Below are positions 3,912-14,289 of a stretch of DNA of 64,000 bases, one piece after another. Source of the stretch: Kangiella sediminilitoris (lineage in GTDB: Bacteria > Pseudomonadota > Gammaproteobacteria > Enterobacterales > Kangiellaceae); NCBI RefSeq assembly GCF_001708405.1, contig NZ_CP012418.1, positions 2,418,001-2,482,000 of the forward strand, given 5' to 3'. The notes beneath the pieces are model-generated. The model made no database searches. It had not been told where the DNA came from and saw only the letters and a list, made by a program, of their open reading frames with translations. How positions within the stretch are numbered: the first letter of the stretch is position 1; every line of letters starts with the position of its first letter. A program made the position numbers and the translations under genes.

Positions 3912-5348
3912 ATGAGCGATAACAAATCTAAGAAACGCGGCCTTTTTGGCTGGTTTGGCAAGAAAGATGATGCTTCGCAAAATAATACTGAAGAGAGTGT
4001 CAGTCCCGAAGAGCTTGACGAAAAACTGGAGCAGGCAGAAGAAGCTTTGGAAGAGGCCCTTGAGAGCGATTTAGAACAGCAGCTTGAAACCGAAGCTAAT
4101 CACAAGGAAACAGTGAGTGATCATGCTGAGGAATCCAATGAACATGCTCAAACCAGAGATACCGACAGTACTCAGGCCAAAAAGCCGACTGATTTGGAAC
4201 ATTCGCAGCATACCGAAGCTGATAATAAAGACTCAATAGCCGACAGTAATGCGGAACCTGATAAAAATACGATTGATACTGATAGCACACAGGCCAAAAA
4301 GCCCACCGATTTAGAACAAAAAGCTGCCACAGAAGCGCAGCACTCCGAAGTTACTGATAACGACATTTCTGCAGGCCCTGAGACCGTTATTACAAGCGGA
4401 GATACCCAGGAAAAACCAGCCCGCAAAGGCTTTTTTTCCAGACTGAAGGACGGCTTAAGCAAAACTCGCTCACAACTTACCAGTGGTATCGCTGACCTGG
4501 TTCTGGGTAGTAAACAGATTGATGATGATTTACTAGAAGATATTGAAACTCAACTGTTAATGGCAGATGTGGGTGTTGAGGCGACTCGACGAATAATAGA
4601 CGATCTCACGCAGAAGTCTGAACGTAAAGAGCTTAAAGATCCTCAAGCGCTAATGGACCGCCTTCGTGAATTGTTATCAGATATTTTAAGACCATGCTCA
4701 GAACCATTAAGTATCGATAACAAGCCCCACGTTATTCTGATGGTTGGAGTTAACGGTGTTGGTAAAACAACAACCATCGGCAAACTGGCCAAGAAGTTCC
4801 AACAGGAAGGCAAGTCCGTTATGCTAGCAGCAGGTGACACTTTCCGTGCCGCTGCAGTTGAACAACTTCAAGTTTGGGGTGAACGCAACAATATCCATGT
4901 TACTGCACAGCATACTGGAGCAGACAGTGCTTCAGTAATTTTTGATGCGCTGCAATCCGCTCAAAGAAAAAATATAGATATTTTAATTGCCGATACCGCG
5001 GGACGACTGCATACAAAATCCAACTTAATGGATGAGTTAGCCAAGGTTAAGCGTGTCATGCATAAACTGGATCCAAGCTCGCCCCATGAGGTTATGCTGG
5101 TGGTCGACGCTGGTACTGGTCAAAATGCACTGAATCAGGCCGAGCATTTCCATAAAGCCATAAATTTGACCGGTGTCACGATCACTAAACTGGATGGAAC
5201 AGCAAAAGGTGGTATTATCTTTGCATTAGCGGATAAATTACAACTTCCTATCCGCTTTATCGGGGTCGGTGAAGGAATTGATGATTTACGCGAATTTAAT
5301 GCCAATGACTTTATCGAAGCTCTTTTTACTACAGAAGAGACGAGCTAG
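3912..5348 (+). CDS. ftsY: Signal recognition particle receptor FtsY
   Basis: GTPase receptor for the signal recognition particle, delivering ribosomes with membrane-protein nascent chains to the translocon. The protein has 478 residues: a basic start, a long acidic A domain to about residue 170, then the NG domain. The GTPase motifs are VGVNGVGKTTTIGKL, DTFRAAA, DTAGR and TKLDGTAKGG. The acidic domain has a diverged tandem duplication: DTDSTQAKKPTDLE occurs at residues 83-96 and again at 122-135. It is first in an ftsY-ftsE-ftsX operon, with 13 bp to ftsE. Confidence 0.97.
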   Translation: MSDNKSKKRGLFGWFGKKDDASQNNTEESVSPEELDEKLEQAEEALEEALESDLEQQLETEANHKETVSDHAEESNEHAQTRDTDSTQAKKPTDLEHSQHTEADNKDSIADSNAEPDKNTIDTDSTQAKKPTDLEQKAATEAQHSEVTDNDISAGPETVITSGDTQEKPARKGFFSRLKDGLSKTRSQLTSGIADLVLGSKQIDDDLLEDIETQLLMADVGVEATRRIIDDLTQKSERKELKDPQALMDRLRELLSDILRPCSEPLSIDNKPHVILMVGVNGVGKTTTIGKLAKKFQQEGKSVMLAAGDTFRAAAVEQLQVWGERNNIHVTAQHTGADSASVIFDALQSAQRKNIDILIADTAGRLHTKSNLMDELAKVKRVMHKLDPSSPHEVMLVVDAGTGQNALNQAEHFHKAINLTGVTITKLDGTAKGGIIFALADKLQLPIRFIGVGEGIDDLREFNANDFIEALFTTEETS

Positions 5349-5361
5349 AATATAATTATAA

Positions 5362-6042
5362 ATGATTGAATTTCATCATGTTTTCAAACGTTATCAAGGT
5401 GGCCATGAAGCGCTGAAGGGTGTTAGCTTTGGCTTACCCCGAGGTGAAATGGCCTTTCTGACCGGTCACAGCGGTGCGGGAAAGAGTACTTTATTGAAAC
5501 TCATAGCTCTGATGGAGCGCCCAACACGCGGGCAAATCATTCTTGATGATATCAACATTTCTAACGTTAAAGATCGCCAAATTCCCTATCATCGCCGAAA
5601 AATAGGCATGATTTTTCAGGATCATCGCTTATTATTCGATCGCACGGTTTACGATAATGTCGCTTTACCGCTGATCATTGCCGGTGTTGCTGATCGCGAT
5701 ATACCCAAGCGCGTACGTGCAGCCCTCGATAAGGTCGGCTTGCTGAATAAAGAAAAACAATTACCCATCGAATTATCTGGCGGAGAACAGCAGCGAGTGG
5801 GTATCGCCCGTGCTGTGGTAAACAAGCCGCCATTACTGCTTGCAGACGAACCAACAGGTAACCTCGACCCAGAGCTTTCTCAGGACATCATGAGCCTCTT
5901 CGAACAATTCAATCAAGTAGGTGTCAGCGTCTTAATTGCCAGTCACGATCTAGGGCTCATTGCCAGAATGAAGCACCCGCTCATCACCCTGAAAGAAGGC
6001 CGTACTATCCGCAATGAACTCGCTGAGGTCGATTTTGCATGA
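5362..6042 (+). CDS. ftsE: Cell division ATP-binding protein FtsE
   Basis: ATPase of the FtsEX complex, which links the divisome to activation of peptidoglycan hydrolases at the septum. The 226 residues match normal FtsE length. Walker A is GHSGAGKST, the ABC signature is LSGGEQQRVGIARAV and Walker B is LLLADEPTG. Its stop codon overlaps the ftsX start in an ATGA junction, indicating translational coupling with its membrane partner. Confidence 0.96.
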   Translation: MIEFHHVFKRYQGGHEALKGVSFGLPRGEMAFLTGHSGAGKSTLLKLIALMERPTRGQIILDDINISNVKDRQIPYHRRKIGMIFQDHRLLFDRTVYDNVALPLIIAGVADRDIPKRVRAALDKVGLLNKEKQLPIELSGGEQQRVGIARAVVNKPPLLLADEPTGNLDPELSQDIMSLFEQFNQVGVSVLIASHDLGLIARMKHPLITLKEGRTIRNELAEVDFA

Positions 6043-7022
6043 GTAATTCTCAGCCGACACATAGAAAGTCTAGTGCTACCAGCTACAAGGTGAAGTTGAC
6101 CGATCGTATTCAAAATACGATGAAACTGCATCGCGAGAATGTGGTTCAGACACTGCTGGATATCCTGCGCCAACCGACCAATAGTCTGATGACTATCCTG
6201 GTGCTGGCAATTGCCTTGGCCTTACCGGCTGCCTTTTACTTATTTATGAGCAACGCCCAATCTGTCTCAGAGTCATGGGATGGCGGAGTTAAAATGGCTA
6301 TTTATCTTGATGATAAAGCCACAGAGAATCAGGCCCAGGATTTATTCACTACACTTAGTCAGAGAGTTGAGTTTGAGGAAGTAGTTTTTGTTAGCAAAGA
6401 CGATGGTCTGGAAATGTTCAAGCAATATTCTGGTTTGGGTAATAGTCTTGAATACCTTGATACCAACCCCTTGCCATATGCTATTACCTTGAAACCTACG
6501 CCTTCTTTTAGTGATTCAGACCAGCTAGAGCTACTGGCAGCTGAACTGGCTCAGTTGCCATTGGTTGCACAGACTAAACTCGATAGCTCATGGATTAAAA
6601 AATACAATTCAATTCTCGAAATCTCTGAGCAAATTGCGACCTTTATCAGCATCATGTTGGCTCTCGGCGTGCTACTGATCGTTGGCAACACCATCCGACT
6701 GGCCATTTTAAATCGTCGCGAAGAGATACAGGTCATAAAACTTGTTGGTGCCACTGATGCCTTCATTCGTCGGCCATTTCTTTATACTGGACTATGGTAT
6801 GGTGCCATAGCGGCGCTTTTAGCGGCACTGATGGTAAACATCATGTTCGTGCTACTGCAGCAATCGACTCACCAGCTAGCACAGCTATACAGTAGTAATT
6901 TTTCATTACTCGGACTTGCTCCTGGCTTTACCCTAAGCTTACTCCTTTGCGGCGCTTTACTGGGATTACTTGGAGCCTGGGTTTCCGTTCGTAAACACTT
7001 AAAAGACATAAATCCACAATAG
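6039..7022 (+). CDS. ftsX: Cell division membrane protein FtsX
   Basis: Membrane subunit of the FtsEX complex. The 327 residues have a cytoplasmic N-terminus, a first membrane segment near residues 55-75, a periplasmic loop of about 120 residues, and three further hydrophobic segments in the C-terminal half (around ISIMLALGVLLIVGNTIRLA and after residue 245), the usual FtsX layout. It overlaps ftsE by 4 bp and is the last gene of the ftsYEX unit. yceI follows after a 130-bp gap. Confidence 0.95.
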   Translation: MSNSQPTHRKSSATSYKVKLTDRIQNTMKLHRENVVQTLLDILRQPTNSLMTILVLAIALALPAAFYLFMSNAQSVSESWDGGVKMAIYLDDKATENQAQDLFTTLSQRVEFEEVVFVSKDDGLEMFKQYSGLGNSLEYLDTNPLPYAITLKPTPSFSDSDQLELLAAELAQLPLVAQTKLDSSWIKKYNSILEISEQIATFISIMLALGVLLIVGNTIRLAILNRREEIQVIKLVGATDAFIRRPFLYTGLWYGAIAALLAALMVNIMFVLLQQSTHQLAQLYSSNFSLLGLAPGFTLSLLLCGALLGLLGAWVSVRKHLKDINPQ

Positions 7023-7152
7023 CACTATTTAATCACATCATAGTGAATATATAGCCTGTGCATTGGATTAGCTCGATTGAGCCTGATAAAAATGATTGCA
7101 AGATTAGATATATACTTTTTACTCTCAGCTTAAAACAAAGGAATCTATTAGC

Positions 7153-7731
7153 ATGAAGAAATTAATTTTCAGCCTAGCCGCTATTTCTGGATTAGCTTTT
7201 ACTCAAAGCAGTAATGCCCAAGCGGTTGATTATGAATTTGATACCGTACACAGCCAAATTATATTTAAGGTGAATCACCTCGGTTACTCCAATTCCTTTG
7301 GTAAATTTCCAACCTTCCGCGGTGAATTAACTTTTGACCAGGAAGATTGGTCAAACTCATCCACCAGCGTTGAGGTTAAAGCTTCTTCCATTGATCTTGA
7401 AAATAAGAAATGGAATGAGCACATGCGCTCTGCCGATTTCTTTCACGTAGAAAAACACCCAATCATGAGCTTCAAAAGTACCAAGCTTGAGAAAACAGGT
7501 GAAAAAGAGGGCGTTCTACATGGTGAGCTGACTATTTTAGACAAGACTCAGCCTATCACTCTAGATTTAACCTTGAACCAGGCTGGTATCCACCCAATGT
7601 CTGAAAAACAGCATGTTGGCTTTTCTGCCCGCGGCTCGATCAAACGCTCGGAGTGGGGCATGGAATACGGTGTGCCAGCAGTGGGTGATAATGTCGATAT
7701 CATTATTGAAGTTGAAGCATCTGCCAAATAA
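7153..7731 (+). CDS. YceI-family periplasmic protein
   Basis: The 192-residue protein has a clear signal peptide (MKKLIFSLAAISGLAF, cleavage likely after SNAQA). The YceI lipocalin-like domain starts at YEFDTVHSQIIFKVNHLGYS and includes HMRSADFF, KHPIMSFKST and the C-terminal GFSARGSIKRSEWG. Family members bind isoprenoid-type lipids in the periplasm. The exact ligand here is unknown. It is inserted between ftsX and rpoH, which are usually adjacent in this class. A strong hairpin without a T-tract follows the stop. Confidence 0.9.
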   Translation: MKKLIFSLAAISGLAFTQSSNAQAVDYEFDTVHSQIIFKVNHLGYSNSFGKFPTFRGELTFDQEDWSNSSTSVEVKASSIDLENKKWNEHMRSADFFHVEKHPIMSFKSTKLEKTGEKEGVLHGELTILDKTQPITLDLTLNQAGIHPMSEKQHVGFSARGSIKRSEWGMEYGVPAVGDNVDIIIEVEASAK

Positions 7732-7740
7732 AATCCCGTA

Positions 7741-7780
7741 ACAGCCGGTTTGGAGTGAACCTCAACTCCTAACCGGCTGT
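7741..7780 (+). other. Strong hairpin after yceI without T-tract
   Basis: ACAGCCGGTT (7741-7750) pairs with AACCGGCTGT (7771-7780). Inside it GGAGT pairs with ACTCC, separated from the outer stem by a single T-T mismatch, with an 8-base loop. No run of T follows, so intrinsic termination is doubtful. It starts 9 bases after the yceI stop and may protect the 3' end of the mRNA or act with Rho. Confidence 0.55.
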
Positions 7781-7816
7781 CTAACAGTAATACTTTCGAT
7801 CAAAGCCACGTATTTA

Positions 7817-7859
7817 TTGACAATTCTTTACCCCAAGAGTTGAAACTTTTGTTATATTT
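7817..7859 (+). promoter_or_regulatory. Possible rpoH promoter elements
   Basis: TTGACA (7817-7822) is a perfect sigma-70 -35 sequence but has no good -10 at 16-18 bases. TATATT (7854-7859) matches five of six -10 positions but lacks a good -35 at the right distance. The latter overlaps the first bases of the CIRCE element, as expected of a repressed promoter. The transcription start cannot be fixed from sequence alone. Confidence 0.3.
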
Positions 7860-7884
7860 AGCACTCTGATATCTAAAGTGCTAA
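7858..7884. promoter_or_regulatory. CIRCE operator 1 (HrcA site) upstream of rpoH
   Basis: TTAGCACTC (7858-7866), a 9-base spacer, then AAGTGCTAA (7876-7884). This matches the CIRCE consensus TTAGCACTC-N9-GAGTGCTAA with one mismatch and the exact spacer length. CIRCE is the binding site of the heat-shock repressor HrcA and usually controls groESL or dnaK. Here it lies 66 bases upstream of the rpoH start. Confidence 0.88.
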
Positions 7885-7888
7885 AAAA

Positions 7889-7915
7889 TTAGCAGTCTCC
7901 GTTAAAGAGTGCTAA
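7889..7915. promoter_or_regulatory. CIRCE operator 2 (HrcA site) upstream of rpoH
   Basis: TTAGCAGTC (7889-7897), a 9-base spacer, then a perfect GAGTGCTAA (7907-7915). One mismatch from the CIRCE consensus, with correct spacing. Its start is 31 bp from that of operator 1, close to three helical turns, so two HrcA dimers could sit on the same face of the DNA. It ends 34 bases before the rpoH ATG. Confidence 0.87.
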
Positions 7916-7949
7916 TATCAACGTAACCATTAATTTTAGGAGGGGATGA

Positions 7950-8801
7950 ATGAGCAATATCCCAATGAACATGGCGCTAGCCGTACCAACTGGTAGTATT
8001 GACGGATACGTCAGTACTGTTAACGCGGTTCCTGTTCTCTCCGTTGAAGACGAACAGGCACTAGCGCATCGATTCCGCGATGAACAAGATCTCGACGCTG
8101 CACGTCAGTTAGTAATGGCTCACTTACGCTTTGTTGTCCATATTGCTAAGAGTTACAGTGGTTACGGCCTGCCTCAGGCGGATTTGATTCAAGAAGGCAA
8201 CATCGGCTTGATGAAAGCCGTCAAACGTTTCGACCCTACAATGGGCGTTCGTCTGGTGTCTTTCGCCGTACACTGGATTAAAGCTGAAATTCACGAATAC
8301 GTGCTGCGCAACTGGCGTATAGTGAAAGTTGCGACAACCAAGGCTCAGAGAAAGCTTTTCTTCAATTTACGCTCTAAAAAGAAGTCACTTAACTGGCTTA
8401 ATAATGAAGAGGTAAAAGCTGTAGCTGACGACTTAGGTGTAAAACCGGAAGAGGTTCGTCGCATGGAAGGGCGCCTTAATGCCCGCGATGCTGCTTTTGA
8501 TGCCCCAGCGCAAGACGATGAAGCAGATACAGCTTATGCTCCTGTTCATTATCTTCAGGCTTCCGATGCCAATCCAGCTGATGCAGTTGAAAAAGAGCAA
8601 TGGCAGGATCAGCGTGAAGAAAGACTGATGTATGCTCTAAAGGCACTTGACGATCGAAGTCAGGATATATTGCAACAACGCTGGCTAAGCGATCAAAAAG
8701 CAACTCTTCACGAGTTAGCTGACAAGTACGGAGTTTCCGCGGAACGTATCCGTCAACTTGAAAAAAACGCCATGAATAAGATCAGAAATGCTATCCAGTA
8801 G
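7950..8801 (+). CDS. rpoH: Heat-shock sigma factor RpoH (sigma-32)
   Basis: Alternative sigma factor that directs RNA polymerase to heat-shock promoters. The 283 residues show region 2 ([35 protein letters not shown]), the diagnostic RpoH box QRKLFFNLR near residue 132, and a region 4 helix-turn-helix ([20 protein letters not shown]). A strong AGGAGGGG Shine-Dalgarno (7938-7945) precedes the ATG. Two CIRCE elements lie in the upstream region, so transcription is probably under HrcA control, placing one heat-shock regulator under another. An intrinsic terminator follows. Confidence 0.97.
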
Positions 8802-9920: not shown

Positions 9921-9955
9921 TTCGCCAGAAATACTTCACCGGTGTGGATAGAATA

Positions 9956-10705
9956 ATGACAAGTAATAACACCCTTTCTTTTAGTATTCTATCCTCCCAT
10001 TGCTGGGTAGATGCTGCATATATAGAGGGTAAATCCCCTGCCTCTGATACATTACTATCAGCGGACTTCAATCCGATTGAATTAAAGCAAATTCCAGCCA
10101 TCAAGCGTCGCAGATTAAATGGAATTAGCAAAATGGCCATGCACTCTTCACTCAAGTGCCTGGAAAAAGCCTCGGTTGATCCCAGTAGCGTGATTACCGT
10201 ATTTGCCTCACAGCACGGAGAACTCAACCGGACCGTCAGTATCGTCGATGACATGGTCAACAACCAGGAAGTCTCCCCCAAAGATTTTAGCCTGTCAGTC
10301 CATAATGCCGCCTTGGGGCTATTCTCTATTTTTAACAAGAACAAACATCCCGGGACCAGCATTGCAGCCAACACTAATACTTTCGGTTATGGATTAATTG
10401 AAGCATTAAATCTTTTACATCGATTCCCTGACTGTCTGGTACTATTGACCTGTTTCGATTCACAGGTAAATCCGCCTTTTCAGTCGTTGCAGTCTGCCCT
10501 ACACCCGAGTCACAGCTACTCGTTACTCCTATCGGCTCCTGACTCCCAGCAATACATTTCCATGAAATTTAATAAGTTTGAAAAGAGAACGTACCCCGAA
10601 TTGCCTCTTGAGCTACAGTTTTTTAACTTTCTGCAGAATGATGTTTCCAGTACCACCATCCGTTCTGAGGATACTGACTGGGAGTTTACAAAACATGCGC
10701 TATAG
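9956..10705 (+). CDS. apeC: Chain-length-factor-like ketosynthase domain, ApeC
   Basis: Only the N-terminal half of a ketosynthase fold is present (about 249 residues against about 400 for a full enzyme). In the region where the active-site Cys would lie the sequence is SIAANTNTFGYGL, with no Cys. This fits ApeC, the non-catalytic partner of the ketosynthase ApeO, known to form a KS/CLF heterodimer that extends the polyene. I chose the ATG at 9956 over a GTG at 9944. The end overlaps apeD by 11 bp. First gene of the operon. Confidence 0.83.
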   Translation: MTSNNTLSFSILSSHCWVDAAYIEGKSPASDTLLSADFNPIELKQIPAIKRRRLNGISKMAMHSSLKCLEKASVDPSSVITVFASQHGELNRTVSIVDDMVNNQEVSPKDFSLSVHNAALGLFSIFNKNKHPGTSIAANTNTFGYGLIEALNLLHRFPDCLVLLTCFDSQVNPPFQSLQSALHPSHSYSLLLSAPDSQQYISMKFNKFEKRTYPELPLELQFFNFLQNDVSSTTIRSEDTDWEFTKHAL

Positions 10706-11489
10706 GCTTAATTACCTGTGGCGCGTTTTCGCAACGGGACTCTCATTTACTACCTTTGGACTGGGTGGCCTGTTCCTATCAATTTTTGTTTTTCCATTTA
10801 TTAAGCTAATGAACCCGGATCCACAGGTTCGTAAACGTAAAGCACGGTACCTGATTCATCGCAGTTGGAACTTTTTTATTAATTTCATGGAAAGCCTTGG
10901 CATCTTTACCTTTCACTTAGAGGAGGCACGCCAGCAACTGGAGGGTGTTGAGGGTAAGGTTATCATCGCCAACCACCCATCTTTAATTGATGTTGTGGCT
11001 CTGATCTCACTAATTCCAAGAGCTGACTGCGTAGTCAAACAGGGACTGTGGAACAATTTTTTCCTAAAACGCGTGGTTCGAGTCGCTGACTTTATTAATA
11101 ACGATCAGGATGTAAATAAACTGATTGAAAACTGTAAAAGATCCCTTGAAGAAGGTTATAATCTGGTCATATTTCCTGAGGGTACTCGCACTGTTCCTAA
11201 TCGCCCGATAAAACTTCAGCGTGGCGCGGCTAATATAGCCGTTCGCTGCCAGCAAAACTTATTGCCGGTGATTATCGACTGCAACCCAACAACTCTGACA
11301 AAACAAGAAAAATGGTATCAAATACCCCCTCGTCGAGCTCAATTCTCGATGAGAGTTGTAGAGGAAATTGATGTTTCTCCGTTCATCCATAACGAAAAAA
11401 ATGAGTCTATAGCAGCCAGACGACTGACGGAGGAAATAAAAAAGGTATTCACAGAGGAACTAGCAAAAAATGAGAGCGATAGAAAATGA
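10695..11489 (+). CDS. apeD: 1-acylglycerol-3-phosphate acyltransferase-like protein, ApeD
   Basis: PlsC-type acyltransferase of 264 residues with the catalytic NHPSLID motif (NHX4D), an FPEGTRT substrate motif and a hydrophobic segment near the N-terminus that probably holds it at the inner membrane. Within an APE cluster it likely helps transfer the polyene or another acyl chain to a glycerolipid-like carrier (inference). The frame is open from 10578, but the ATG at 10695 begins MRYRLNYLWR, gives normal family length and overlaps apeC by only 11 bp. It overlaps apeE by 20 bp. Confidence 0.82.
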   Translation: MRYRLNYLWRVFATGLSFTTFGLGGLFLSIFVFPFIKLMNPDPQVRKRKARYLIHRSWNFFINFMESLGIFTFHLEEARQQLEGVEGKVIIANHPSLIDVVALISLIPRADCVVKQGLWNNFFLKRVVRVADFINNDQDVNKLIENCKRSLEEGYNLVIFPEGTRTVPNRPIKLQRGAANIAVRCQQNLLPVIIDCNPTTLTKQEKWYQIPPRRAQFSMRVVEEIDVSPFIHNEKNESIAARRLTEEIKKVFTEELAKNESDRK

Positions 11490-11733
11490 GATTAAGGGCG
11501 TCATTATTGAAGCACTTGATCTCGAAGATATGAGCATTGATGATATTGATACTGAAGAACCATTGTTTGGGGATGGCCTGGGCCTGGACTCAATAGATGC
11601 TTTGGAGCTGGGCTTGGCTCTAAAGAAAAAATTCGACATCAAATTGGACTCTGATTCGGAAGAGTCTAAAAAGCACTTTTATTCCGTGCAGACACTAGCT
11701 GACTTTATTGAAGAACAAAAAGGAGCTGAATAA
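11470..11733 (+). CDS. apeE: Acyl carrier protein ApeE
   Basis: Acidic 87-residue carrier protein. The phosphopantetheine attachment Ser is Ser41 in GLGLDSIDALELG. It begins inside the end of apeD and its stop overlaps the start of apeF by one base. In characterised APE systems one carrier holds the growing chain and the second has a separate loading or transfer role. Which is which cannot be read from this sequence; the symbol follows position in the cluster. Confidence 0.87.
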   Translation: MRAIENEIKGVIIEALDLEDMSIDDIDTEEPLFGDGLGLDSIDALELGLALKKKFDIKLDSDSEESKKHFYSVQTLADFIEEQKGAE

Positions 11734-11990
11734 TGGCAAGCATGGAAACTAAAGAACAGATTTACGATCAATTGGTCGACATACTGGTGGATGACTTTGA
11801 AGTTGATGAAGACGATATCAATTTAGAAGCCAACCTTTACACGGATCTTGATCTGGACAGTATCGATACGGTTGATTTGGTGATTAAGCTTCAAGAAATG
11901 ACGGGGAAATCGGTTAACCCCGAAACGTTTAAAGCTGTACGTACCATGCAACATGTAGTTGATGCCGTTCACGACTTAGTCCACGGCTAG
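11733..11990 (+). CDS. apeF: Acyl carrier protein ApeF
   Basis: Second acidic carrier, 85 residues, with attachment Ser43 in the motif DLDLDSIDTVDLV. It is clearly diverged from apeE, so the pair is not a recent duplication. The start overlaps the apeE stop by one base, implying coupled translation and similar amounts of both carriers. apeG follows 11 bp downstream. Confidence 0.88.
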   Translation: MASMETKEQIYDQLVDILVDDFEVDEDDINLEANLYTDLDLDSIDTVDLVIKLQEMTGKSVNPETFKAVRTMQHVVDAVHDLVHG

Positions 11991-12001
11991 AACTTTATCG
12001 T

Positions 12002-12565
12002 ATGGCCATCCTGCTAAAAATAGCAATCGCTGTTGTGGTATTGCTGTACCCGATAGCGATTTATTTTGGCTTACAGTATATCGAACCGAAATATCTCGCC
12101 CTAACCTTGGCGGGTTTGGTCATTCTAAGAGCATTACTGTCCAAGAGCCAATTACTTAGTAGCGTTAAAGGCCTTTGGTTCATCATCTTAATGGCTGGCC
12201 TGACAGTTGCAGCATTAAGCTTTCTTCAAAACTCGACGTTAGGCCTTAAACTTTACCCAGTTATTATAACCACCAGCTTTCTTGTCGTTTTTGGCTATAG
12301 TTTATATAAGCCTCCAACAGTCATTGAACGCTTAGCTCGACTCCAGGAGCCTGATTTACCCCCTGAAGGCGTCGCCTATACCCGTACCGTAACAAAAGTC
12401 TGGTGTGGTTTCTTTATTCTTAATCTTGCCATTTCTATATACACGGTTTTTTATAGCAGCATGGCGGTTTGGACCCTTTATAATGGCCTTATTTCCTATG
12501 TTTTAATGGGAATTCTTTTTCTCGCTGAACTTATTGTAAGAAAGTTCATTATAAAGAAGGTATAG
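12002..12565 (+). CDS. apeG: Integral membrane protein of APE clusters (COG4648 type), ApeG
   Basis: The 187 residues are mostly hydrophobic, with about five or six membrane segments (for example IAIAVVVLLYPIAIYFGL at the start and YVLMGILFLAELIV near the end). A conserved-looking loop, PPTVIERLARLQEPDLPPEG, sits mid-protein. The family occurs in aryl polyene clusters but its biochemical role is not established. It lies between the carriers and the ligase and may assemble lipid-handling enzymes at the inner membrane (inference). Confidence 0.75.
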   Translation: MAILLKIAIAVVVLLYPIAIYFGLQYIEPKYLALTLAGLVILRALLSKSQLLSSVKGLWFIILMAGLTVAALSFLQNSTLGLKLYPVIITTSFLVVFGYSLYKPPTVIERLARLQEPDLPPEGVAYTRTVTKVWCGFFILNLAISIYTVFYSSMAVWTLYNGLISYVLMGILFLAELIVRKFIIKKV

Positions 12566-12575
12566 GGAAATTGTT

Positions 12576-13919
12576 ATGAAAGCCATTTCTCAACTACAAA
12601 CGTTGCTTACTGATGATAAGCCCAGCATAGTCGCATTTGATTCAAATAAAAGCATCTATTTGCAGCAATTACAGCATGATCTATTACAATGTGTCGCTAG
12701 CCTCAAAAGCAACCCCTCAAATACCTATCTGCTCTTCATAGACAACAGCTACCATTTCACCGTTAATCTTCTGAGCCTCTTATTACTGAATAAAAATGTT
12801 GTGTTGTCTGCTAATAATAAACCGGATTGGCTGGATAGTATTGCTAGTGCTTATGGCGCCATAATTTCTGATGCCCCTTTACATCAAAGCTACCTCAGCG
12901 CAACTCATTATGAAGACATACAGACCGAACTGGACAACTCGGCCCTAACGGTACCGCCAAATTTTGATAGTGAAATCCAGTTTTATACTTCAGGCTCAAG
13001 CAGTAGGCCAAAGGCTATTTCCAAAACTATTTCTCAACTTTTAATAGAAGTTGATACCCTGGAAGAACTTTTCCAGGAACAATTGGGAACATGTCACGTT
13101 TTAGCCACAGTATCTCACCATCATATTTATGGCCTGATTTTCAGGTTGTTGTGGCCTTTACTTTACCGGCGGCCTTTTTTCATCGATATCATCCTATACC
13201 CAGAACAATTGATTGAGCTTAATAGGCTGTACCCGCAAAGTTGCCTGGTTTCAAGTCCTGCATTTTTATCTCGGCAAGATCATAAATTGACTAAAGTCTC
13301 CCTTGCTGCATGTTTTAGCTCAGGAAGCTTGTTGATAAAGTCGGCCGCCGAAGCAGCCCATAAACAGCTGGGCGTTTTCCCGATAGAAGTATTTGGCAGC
13401 ACAGAAACTGGCGGAATTGGCTATCGGACTCAGCACAACCACAATATTCTGTGGACGCTATTTCCCGGCCTGTCACTAACAACAGATGATCATCAAAAAG
13501 CAACTCTTGAGTCACCTTATTTAATAGCACCGCAAAGGCTTGATGACCGAGTCAAGCTCCTGCCAAACGGGCAATTTGAATTATTAGGCAGAGCAGATAG
13601 AGTAGTAAAAATCGAAGAGAAAAGGGTGTCACTGGATGCCGTTGAAGCAACTCTTTGCGAGTCTCCGTTTGTGGAGGAGGCAAAGCTGGTTGTACTACAA
13701 CAAAATAGACGCTTCCTCGGTGCTGTCATCAAGTTGAGCCCAAAAGGGCTGACCCATCTGCAACAACACTCTAAGCTTGAGCTAAACAAGTTATTAAAAC
13801 ACTCCTTGATACAAAGGTTTGATGCCGTTGCCATTCCTAGAAAATGGCGCTACCTTGAACAGCTACCCTATAATGCTCAGGGAAAGTTACCTGTAAATAC
13901 CTTAACGGAGCTTTTTTGA
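12576..13919 (+). CDS. apeH: Aryl/acyl-activating AMP ligase ApeH
   Basis: Member of the adenylate-forming superfamily, 447 residues. The phosphate-binding loop reads FYTSGSSSRPKAISKT, the adenine-binding region is FGSTETGGIGYR, and a C-terminal YNAQGKLPVNTL supplies the usual catalytic Lys. It should activate an aromatic acid starter as the AMP ester and load it onto an acyl carrier. In studied clusters the substrate is a hydroxybenzoate-type acid. It is about 50-100 residues shorter than typical acyl-CoA ligases, as usual in these clusters. Confidence 0.85.
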   Translation: MKAISQLQTLLTDDKPSIVAFDSNKSIYLQQLQHDLLQCVASLKSNPSNTYLLFIDNSYHFTVNLLSLLLLNKNVVLSANNKPDWLDSIASAYGAIISDAPLHQSYLSATHYEDIQTELDNSALTVPPNFDSEIQFYTSGSSSRPKAISKTISQLLIEVDTLEELFQEQLGTCHVLATVSHHHIYGLIFRLLWPLLYRRPFFIDIILYPEQLIELNRLYPQSCLVSSPAFLSRQDHKLTKVSLAACFSSGSLLIKSAAEAAHKQLGVFPIEVFGSTETGGIGYRTQHNHNILWTLFPGLSLTTDDHQKATLESPYLIAPQRLDDRVKLLPNGQFELLGRADRVVKIEEKRVSLDAVEATLCESPFVEEAKLVVLQQNRRFLGAVIKLSPKGLTHLQQHSKLELNKLLKHSLIQRFDAVAIPRKWRYLEQLPYNAQGKLPVNTLTELF

Positions 13920-13920
13920 T

Positions 13921-14289
13921 ATGAAGTTTCCCCCAGTGATCAATCAGCAAGTCAATACGGATAAATCTTGTACTTTTAGTTTAATGATTACACCGGAACT
14001 AGATGCCTTCGAAGGCCATTTCGATAACTTTCCTATTGTTCCGGGTGTGGTTCAAATTCAGTGGGCTTTACACTTCTTCAGTCACTACATGGCCCAATCA
14101 AATAGCAGTCATCGCTGGCAAGTCGATAGATTATCCGCCATCAAGTTCCAGCAAGTGATTACCCCCGAATTGTCAGTCAATTTAGAACTACATTTTGATG
14201 AGCAAAAACAGCTTTTACAGTTTAAAATCACCAGTTCTGAGCATCAACATTCTTCCGGGAAGCTGCTACTGAAAGCAGTAGAGGACTAA
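13921..14289 (+). CDS. apeI: Hotdog-fold 3-hydroxyacyl-ACP dehydratase ApeI
   Basis: Small hotdog protein of 122 residues. The motif EGHFDNFPIVPGVVQ corresponds to the FabZ/FabA GHFxxxPxxPGV signature and contains the probable catalytic His33. It removes water from the 3-hydroxyacyl chain to form each double bond. In studied APE systems ApeI works as a complex with the second hotdog protein, ApeP, also encoded here. It starts one base after the apeH stop. Confidence 0.86.
   Translation: MKFPPVINQQVNTDKSCTFSLMITPELDAFEGHFDNFPIVPGVVQIQWALHFFSHYMAQSNSSHRWQVDRLSAIKFQQVITPELSVNLELHFDEQKQLLQFKITSSEHQHSSGKLLLKAVED

Follow-up and report, generated by a model that had tools for sequence, protein, structure and literature searches.

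Two phased predicted HrcA operators and a predicted sigma-E promoter upstream of rpoH in Kangiella sediminilitoris

The heat-shock sigma factor gene rpoH of Kangiella sediminilitoris is preceded by two CIRCE sites, operators of the type bound by the repressor HrcA, and the first of them is interlocked with a promoter motif of the sigma-E type. Positions 7842-7915 of the window (the whole stretch of 64,000 nucleotides that was analysed) are read as a sigma-E stress promoter of rpoH with two HrcA operators, such that HrcA would gate both rpoH and groESL, and the probability of this reading is put at roughly 0.78. HrcA control of rpoH is strongly predicted from the sequence because hrcA is present in the genome, the sites are conserved at a fixed spacing, and CIRCE at rpoH tracks hrcA across the class (Gammaproteobacteria as delimited in GTDB). 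The parts are of known kinds; a phased CIRCE pair interlocked with a sigma-E promoter is new here.

The operator pair and the genes it may serve

The features of the region, in window coordinates, are as follows.

7842..7848, + strand: sigma-E-type -35 element GAAACTT, 6/7 to GGAACTT, at the class-wide peak position relative to CIRCE
7858..7884, + strand: CIRCE site 1, TTAGCACTCTGATATCTAAAGTGCTAA, one mismatch (17/18), overlapping the sigma-E-type -10 element and the predicted transcription start
7865..7869, + strand: sigma-E-type -10 element TCTGA, 16 nt after the -35 element and within CIRCE site 1, 4/4
7889..7915, + strand: CIRCE site 2, TTAGCAGTCTCCGTTAAAGAGTGCTAA, one mismatch (17/18)
7938..7945, + strand: Shine-Dalgarno-like AGGAGGGG before rpoH, read from the sequence
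7950..8801, + strand: rpoH, heat-shock sigma factor sigma-32, 283 aa, ATG start (TIGR02392, 414 bits against a cut-off of 323)

Both sites conform to the CIRCE consensus, the inverted repeat TTAGCACTC-N9-GAGTGCTAA with the N9 spacer exact, and they start 31 bp apart with a gap of 4 bp between them, which confirms the sequence-only reading in its description of two sites at 7858-7884 and 7889-7915, each with a single mismatch and an exact spacer, at a distance of 31 bp. At up to three mismatches they are the only CIRCE matches in the 64-kb window, for which chance gives a mean of 0.05, two matches having arisen in 1 of 100 shuffles. The search for further sites that had been proposed along with that description yielded one more: the whole genome (a single 2.50-Mb contig) contains three CIRCE matches at the same threshold, the rpoH pair and one at groES, every one of them with one mismatch. 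A control pattern, CIRCE read backwards, also gives 2 matches in the genome at up to three mismatches, so the threshold by itself is no proof.

The genome contains one hrcA gene (TIGR00331, 310 bits against a cut-off of 197), the absence of which had been named in advance as evidence against the proposal; its product has a winged-helix DNA-binding domain (PF01628 and PF03444, both above cut-off). The next gene is grpE, and hrcA-grpE has no CIRCE in this genome at up to three mismatches. A gene for sigma-E is also present (rpoE, TIGR02939, 323.8 bits against the curated cut-off of 236.15). RpoH finds a sole other match in the genome, at 30% identity in an open frame of 623 codons that is presumably rpoD; among named relatives that share the arrangement, its identity is 95% to Kangiella shandongensis (L256), 93% to K. 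taiwanensis (L259) and 66% to Aliikangiella coralliicola (L240).

The third operator lies 70 bp before the start of groES (named by PF00166), on the other strand (L001:1501-1527). Among the matches listed for CIRCE sites away from rpoH, at up to two mismatches, 17 of 20 have CCCC in the spacer on one strand, their gene context having been looked at in the K. sediminilitoris genome only. CCCC resembles the sigma-32 -10 element, which raises the possibility that a sigma-32 promoter is interlocked with the groES operator in the way that the sigma-E-type one is with the operator of rpoH.

Conservation of the pair and occurrence of CIRCE at rpoH in the class

All 20 genomes of the genus, K. sediminilitoris included, have both sites with at most two mismatches each and always 31 bp apart, the distance staying fixed while the N9 spacers vary; loss of the sites in close relatives, which the sequence-only reading had offered as grounds for abandoning the idea, is not what is found. 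The family was sampled with 40 genomes, 37 of which gave an RpoH match at E <= 1e-60. None of the 17 that lie outside the genus lacks a site at up to two mismatches, and a second at up to four mismatches occurs in 10 of them, 30, 31 or 33 bp away, which brings the pair to 30 of the 37 family genomes with rpoH. In genome G012 a second rpoH-like copy (C30:5496-6302) with seven in-frame stops has a perfect CIRCE upstream (C30:6454-6480).

Whether the second operator matters is a separate question. One operator might suffice, the pair being a redundant duplication to which the second site adds nothing: most CIRCE-bearing class genomes have one site only, and 7 of the 17 family genomes outside the genus are single-site, some with it at the distance of site 1 from the promoter-like motif and some at about that of site 2. 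The exact 31-bp distance kept in 20/20 genus genomes despite varying spacers speaks against redundancy, as does the spacing found farther away. Outside the family, 5 of 102 CIRCE-bearing rpoH upstream regions have a second site (at up to five mismatches and within 120 bp), and four of these five second sites lie 30-33 bp from the first, which argues for a phase constraint. Redundancy is for these reasons considered doubtful, at about one chance in four, and a functional, phased pair is preferred.

Genome contigs were also scanned for CIRCE pairs with 3-6 bp between the sites, a pattern outside which the window pair itself falls, the seventh base of site 2 being G. The scan returned 60 stretches (L224-L283), adjoining rpoH in 15 cases, groES in 3, hrcA in 1 and none of the four tested genes in 41. 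The 15 at rpoH belong to Kangiella (8), Kangiellaceae (1), Aliikangiella (2) and other Gammaproteobacteria (4); the 45 of 60 away from rpoH are mostly from Actinomycetota and mostly at 33-bp spacing.

A single CIRCE at rpoH is widespread. The class sample comprised 149 genomes including that of K. sediminilitoris, nearly every one representing a different family; RpoH was matched at E <= 1e-55 in 139, and the 400 bp upstream of the best rpoH copy were read in each of the 138 others. CIRCE is present there in 98 of the 138 at up to three mismatches, in 92 at up to two, and in perfect form in 50, compared with 0 of 6,900 base-shuffled class upstream regions at up to three mismatches. The suggestion that CIRCE at rpoH is exceptional in K. 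sediminilitoris consequently fails, though its other half, that rpoH is wired to HrcA, is strongly predicted. The sites go with the repressor gene: CIRCE at rpoH is found in 93 of 102 class genomes with hrcA and in 5 of 36 without it (Fisher p ~1e-17, uncorrected for kinship). Nine of the 102 hrcA-bearing genomes have no site at the rpoH copy examined, among them G069, which has a CIRCE at its second rpoH copy (L175), and one of the five CIRCE genomes lacking an hrcA match, G120, carries part of hrcA at the edge of a contig. Within the order the same association appears in small numbers, 3 of 3 genomes with hrcA having the site versus 1 of 31 without (Fisher, likewise not corrected for kinship); 69 order-mates outside the family had an RpoH match, 34 of which were read, with G161 counted with the class, and the reading covered 3 of the 7 such genomes that have hrcA, leaving out G226, G234, G239 and G243.

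Wiring common to the whole phylum was rejected, CIRCE at up to three mismatches having been found at the best RpoH copy of only 1 of 20 genomes read outside the class, out of 68 (L292, a perfect site).

That the sites are accidents or functionless relics is hardly credible. Relics might be suspected from the one mismatch in each window site, site 2 being perfect in several relatives, but the sites are conserved in genus, family and class, and CIRCE at rpoH is associated with hrcA. A chance origin was rejected on the 0.05 matches expected per window and the empty set of shuffled class upstream regions.

The sigma-E-type motif and its overlap with site 1

The sigma-E promoter consensus consists of a GGAACTT -35 element, about 16 nucleotides, and a -10 element resembling TCTNA. 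The sequence-only reading overlooked a predicted promoter of this type that contains part of site 1: GAAACTT-N16-TCTGA at 7842-7869, 108 bp before rpoH (-108), from which transcription would start, as judged by the position of the motif, at about 7875-7877, within site 1. The shortness of such motifs tells against the reading, since two other places in the 64-kb window, 1779 and 12566, match at 10/11 as well. When the 98 class sites are aligned on CIRCE, the conserved columns are G A A C T ahead of the site (-15 to -11) and, within the spacer, T (+9) and A (+11), in agreement with the sigma-E consensus. The start of a GGAACTT-like -35 element (at least 5/7) falls exactly at -16 from CIRCE in 54 of the 98, with 9 cases at -17, 6 at -15 and no more than 4 for any of 37 other offsets. 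Sixteen nucleotides after it, the TC that closes the left arm and the opening three bases of the spacer together form TC..A in 74 of 98 class sites and TCTNA in 48. The TC is fixed by CIRCE and so is no independent evidence for a promoter; the information resides in the -35 element and in the T at +9 (67/98) and the A at +11 (74/98).

Matches of at least 10/11 to the sigma-E-type motif occur in 46 of the 98 class upstream regions with CIRCE (0.6% in shuffles), and also in 6 of 40 class upstream regions and 10 of 30 order-mates without CIRCE (0.3% in shuffles in each case), a pattern that points to the sigma-E promoter persisting after the operator is gone. In the genus, a motif of at least 9/11 is present in 20/20 genomes. 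It has the interlocked geometry, within 1 bp, in 13; in the other 7 (L015, L021-L026) it is displaced upstream by 14-23 bp relative to the window and is clear of site 1, so that both operators are just downstream of the promoter.

HrcA might instead repress rpoH at a housekeeping sigma-70 promoter, such as one with the extended -10-like TGTTATATT at 7850-7858, or at a sigma-32 promoter. The letters of TGTTATATT stand directly before site 1 and have similar counterparts in L008-L014, and at 33 of the 98 class sites no sigma-E -35 match falls within 1 bp of the position expected (at the remaining 65 one does). Against such a promoter, the TGTTATAT-like stretch is not conserved in L015-L026, across a genus in which the sigma-E-like motif persists throughout, and a sigma-70 scan of 7700-8000 gave one promoter-like site, at 7706-7734, compared with 0.7 in shuffles. 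Since that was the only site found, a sigma-70 promoter adjoining the CIRCE sites was rejected, and the broader possibility of a promoter other than sigma-E is regarded as unlikely.

The inverted repeats could also act as RNA hairpins in the rpoH leader, affecting stability or sensing temperature, and not as operators. CIRCE by nature has inverted arms, and the transcript would include site 2 in full; from the predicted start, however, it would contain only part of site 1, and across the class the sites track hrcA. Base pairing between the arms was counted over 882 arm pairs from the 98 class sites, of which 818 are unchanged. Among single changes, 37 preserve pairing as G-U and 23 abolish it, which speaks for a hairpin, but both-sided changes to another Watson-Crick pair number only 3, with 1 double change to G-U, and the count lends little support to an RNA role, though one is conceivable for site 2. 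Nothing in the window matches Rfam at gathering score, and a known RNA family, an RNA thermometer in the leader included, was rejected for that reason. A hairpin function is accordingly rated very improbable, and the sites continue to be treated as operators.

The predicted circuit and its relation to known systems

Under the preferred reading, RNA polymerase with sigma-E (RpoE) would recognise GAAACTT-N16-TCTGA and begin transcription inside site 1. In the unstressed cell, site 1 would be occupied by an HrcA dimer that covers the -10 element and the start and so blocks polymerase, and a second dimer on site 2 would strengthen the block, either by cooperation or as a roadblock; site 2 lies about three helical turns downstream, so that both dimers would sit on the same side of the DNA. 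Inactivation of HrcA by heat, or titration of GroE by unfolded protein, would free rpoH transcription, to which envelope stress would contribute through sigma-E, and sigma-32, once released, would drive the rest of its regulon. Bacillus HrcA needs GroE for activity; with the same dependence, groESL and rpoH would both be relieved of repression when GroEL is titrated.

Since groES has its own CIRCE, HrcA control would extend to both tiers, rpoH and groESL. The proposal that HrcA and sigma-32 form a cascade instead of working in parallel is therefore retained in its first step, HrcA acting on rpoH, which is predicted here, and is too simple beyond it: with operators at both rpoH and groES, the arrangement would be feed-forward and not a plain cascade.

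The corresponding region of E. coli K-12 served as a control for the motif search. The 300 bp upstream of its rpoH contain TGAACTT-N16-TCTGA at -121, the sole match of at least 9/11, which we take to be the P3 promoter of rpoH; the gene and the N16 spacing between -35 and -10 elements are the same as in the window, but CIRCE is found in the window only, the best match in those 300 bp of E. coli having 7 mismatches. A search for HrcA in 14 control genomes was positive in 7, and E. coli was not among them. The use of rpoHP3 as a sigma-E reporter in E. coli is described in the portion consulted of PMC2215328.

Classical CIRCE/HrcA systems at groESL and dnaK operons have the same operator sequence and spacer as the window sites; what differs in the window is that the operators are two, phased, and placed before the heat-shock sigma factor gene. 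The nearest published case, and the only one of CIRCE at rpoH in the literature examined, is that of Geobacter sulfurreducens, for which a single CIRCE was predicted computationally upstream of rpoH at position -51 (PMC545781, as excerpted) and which, together with the class-wide counts, contradicts the supposed uniqueness of the K. sediminilitoris wiring. It resembles the present case in having CIRCE at rpoH and differs in being a single site outside the class; neither an interlock with sigma-E nor a pair is described in the excerpt of PMC545781. For beta-, gamma- and epsilonproteobacteria the same excerpt refers to Permina and Gelfand 2003. That work, which lay outside the literature search, is the likeliest source of earlier beta- and gammaproteobacterial predictions and may contain more; the search itself found no report of CIRCE at rpoH in this class or of its overlap with a sigma-E promoter.

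The distribution of operator and promoter leans, by a modest degree, toward an ancestral gammaproteobacterial (GTDB) rpoH promoter of the sigma-E type with its -10 element inside an HrcA operator, of which E. coli P3 would be the remnant after loss of hrcA and operator, and to which Kangiellaceae would have added a phased second operator. If so, envelope stress and a shortage of cytoplasmic chaperones would be read at one overlapping site before any sigma-32 is made, and the second, helically phased operator of Kangiellaceae would sharpen the switch. In E. coli, the textbook model of the heat-shock response, sigma-32 is controlled chiefly through its translation and stability. That species would become the derived case if the prediction holds: of the 102 class genomes sampled that carry both hrcA and rpoH, the 93 with the site would control sigma-32 transcriptionally through HrcA, and many of these would use one promoter for both HrcA and sigma-E control. 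The region thus offers a testable circuit in which two stress inputs fall on overlapping DNA and HrcA also acts directly on groESL, and the pair, as a natural tandem-operator variant with fixed phasing, is suited to tests of HrcA cooperativity.

Gene order around rpoH is partly shared with E. coli. The window has ftsY, ftsE, ftsX and rpoH in a row at 3912-8801; in E. coli rpoH directly follows ftsX, whereas in the window a YceI-like gene (7153-7731) intervenes between the two. Downstream, at 9944-14289, is a run of open frames, named by eye, resembling a ketosynthase, an acyltransferase, two acyl carrier proteins, an AMP ligase and a dehydratase, and this run resembles a pigment cluster of the aryl polyene type.
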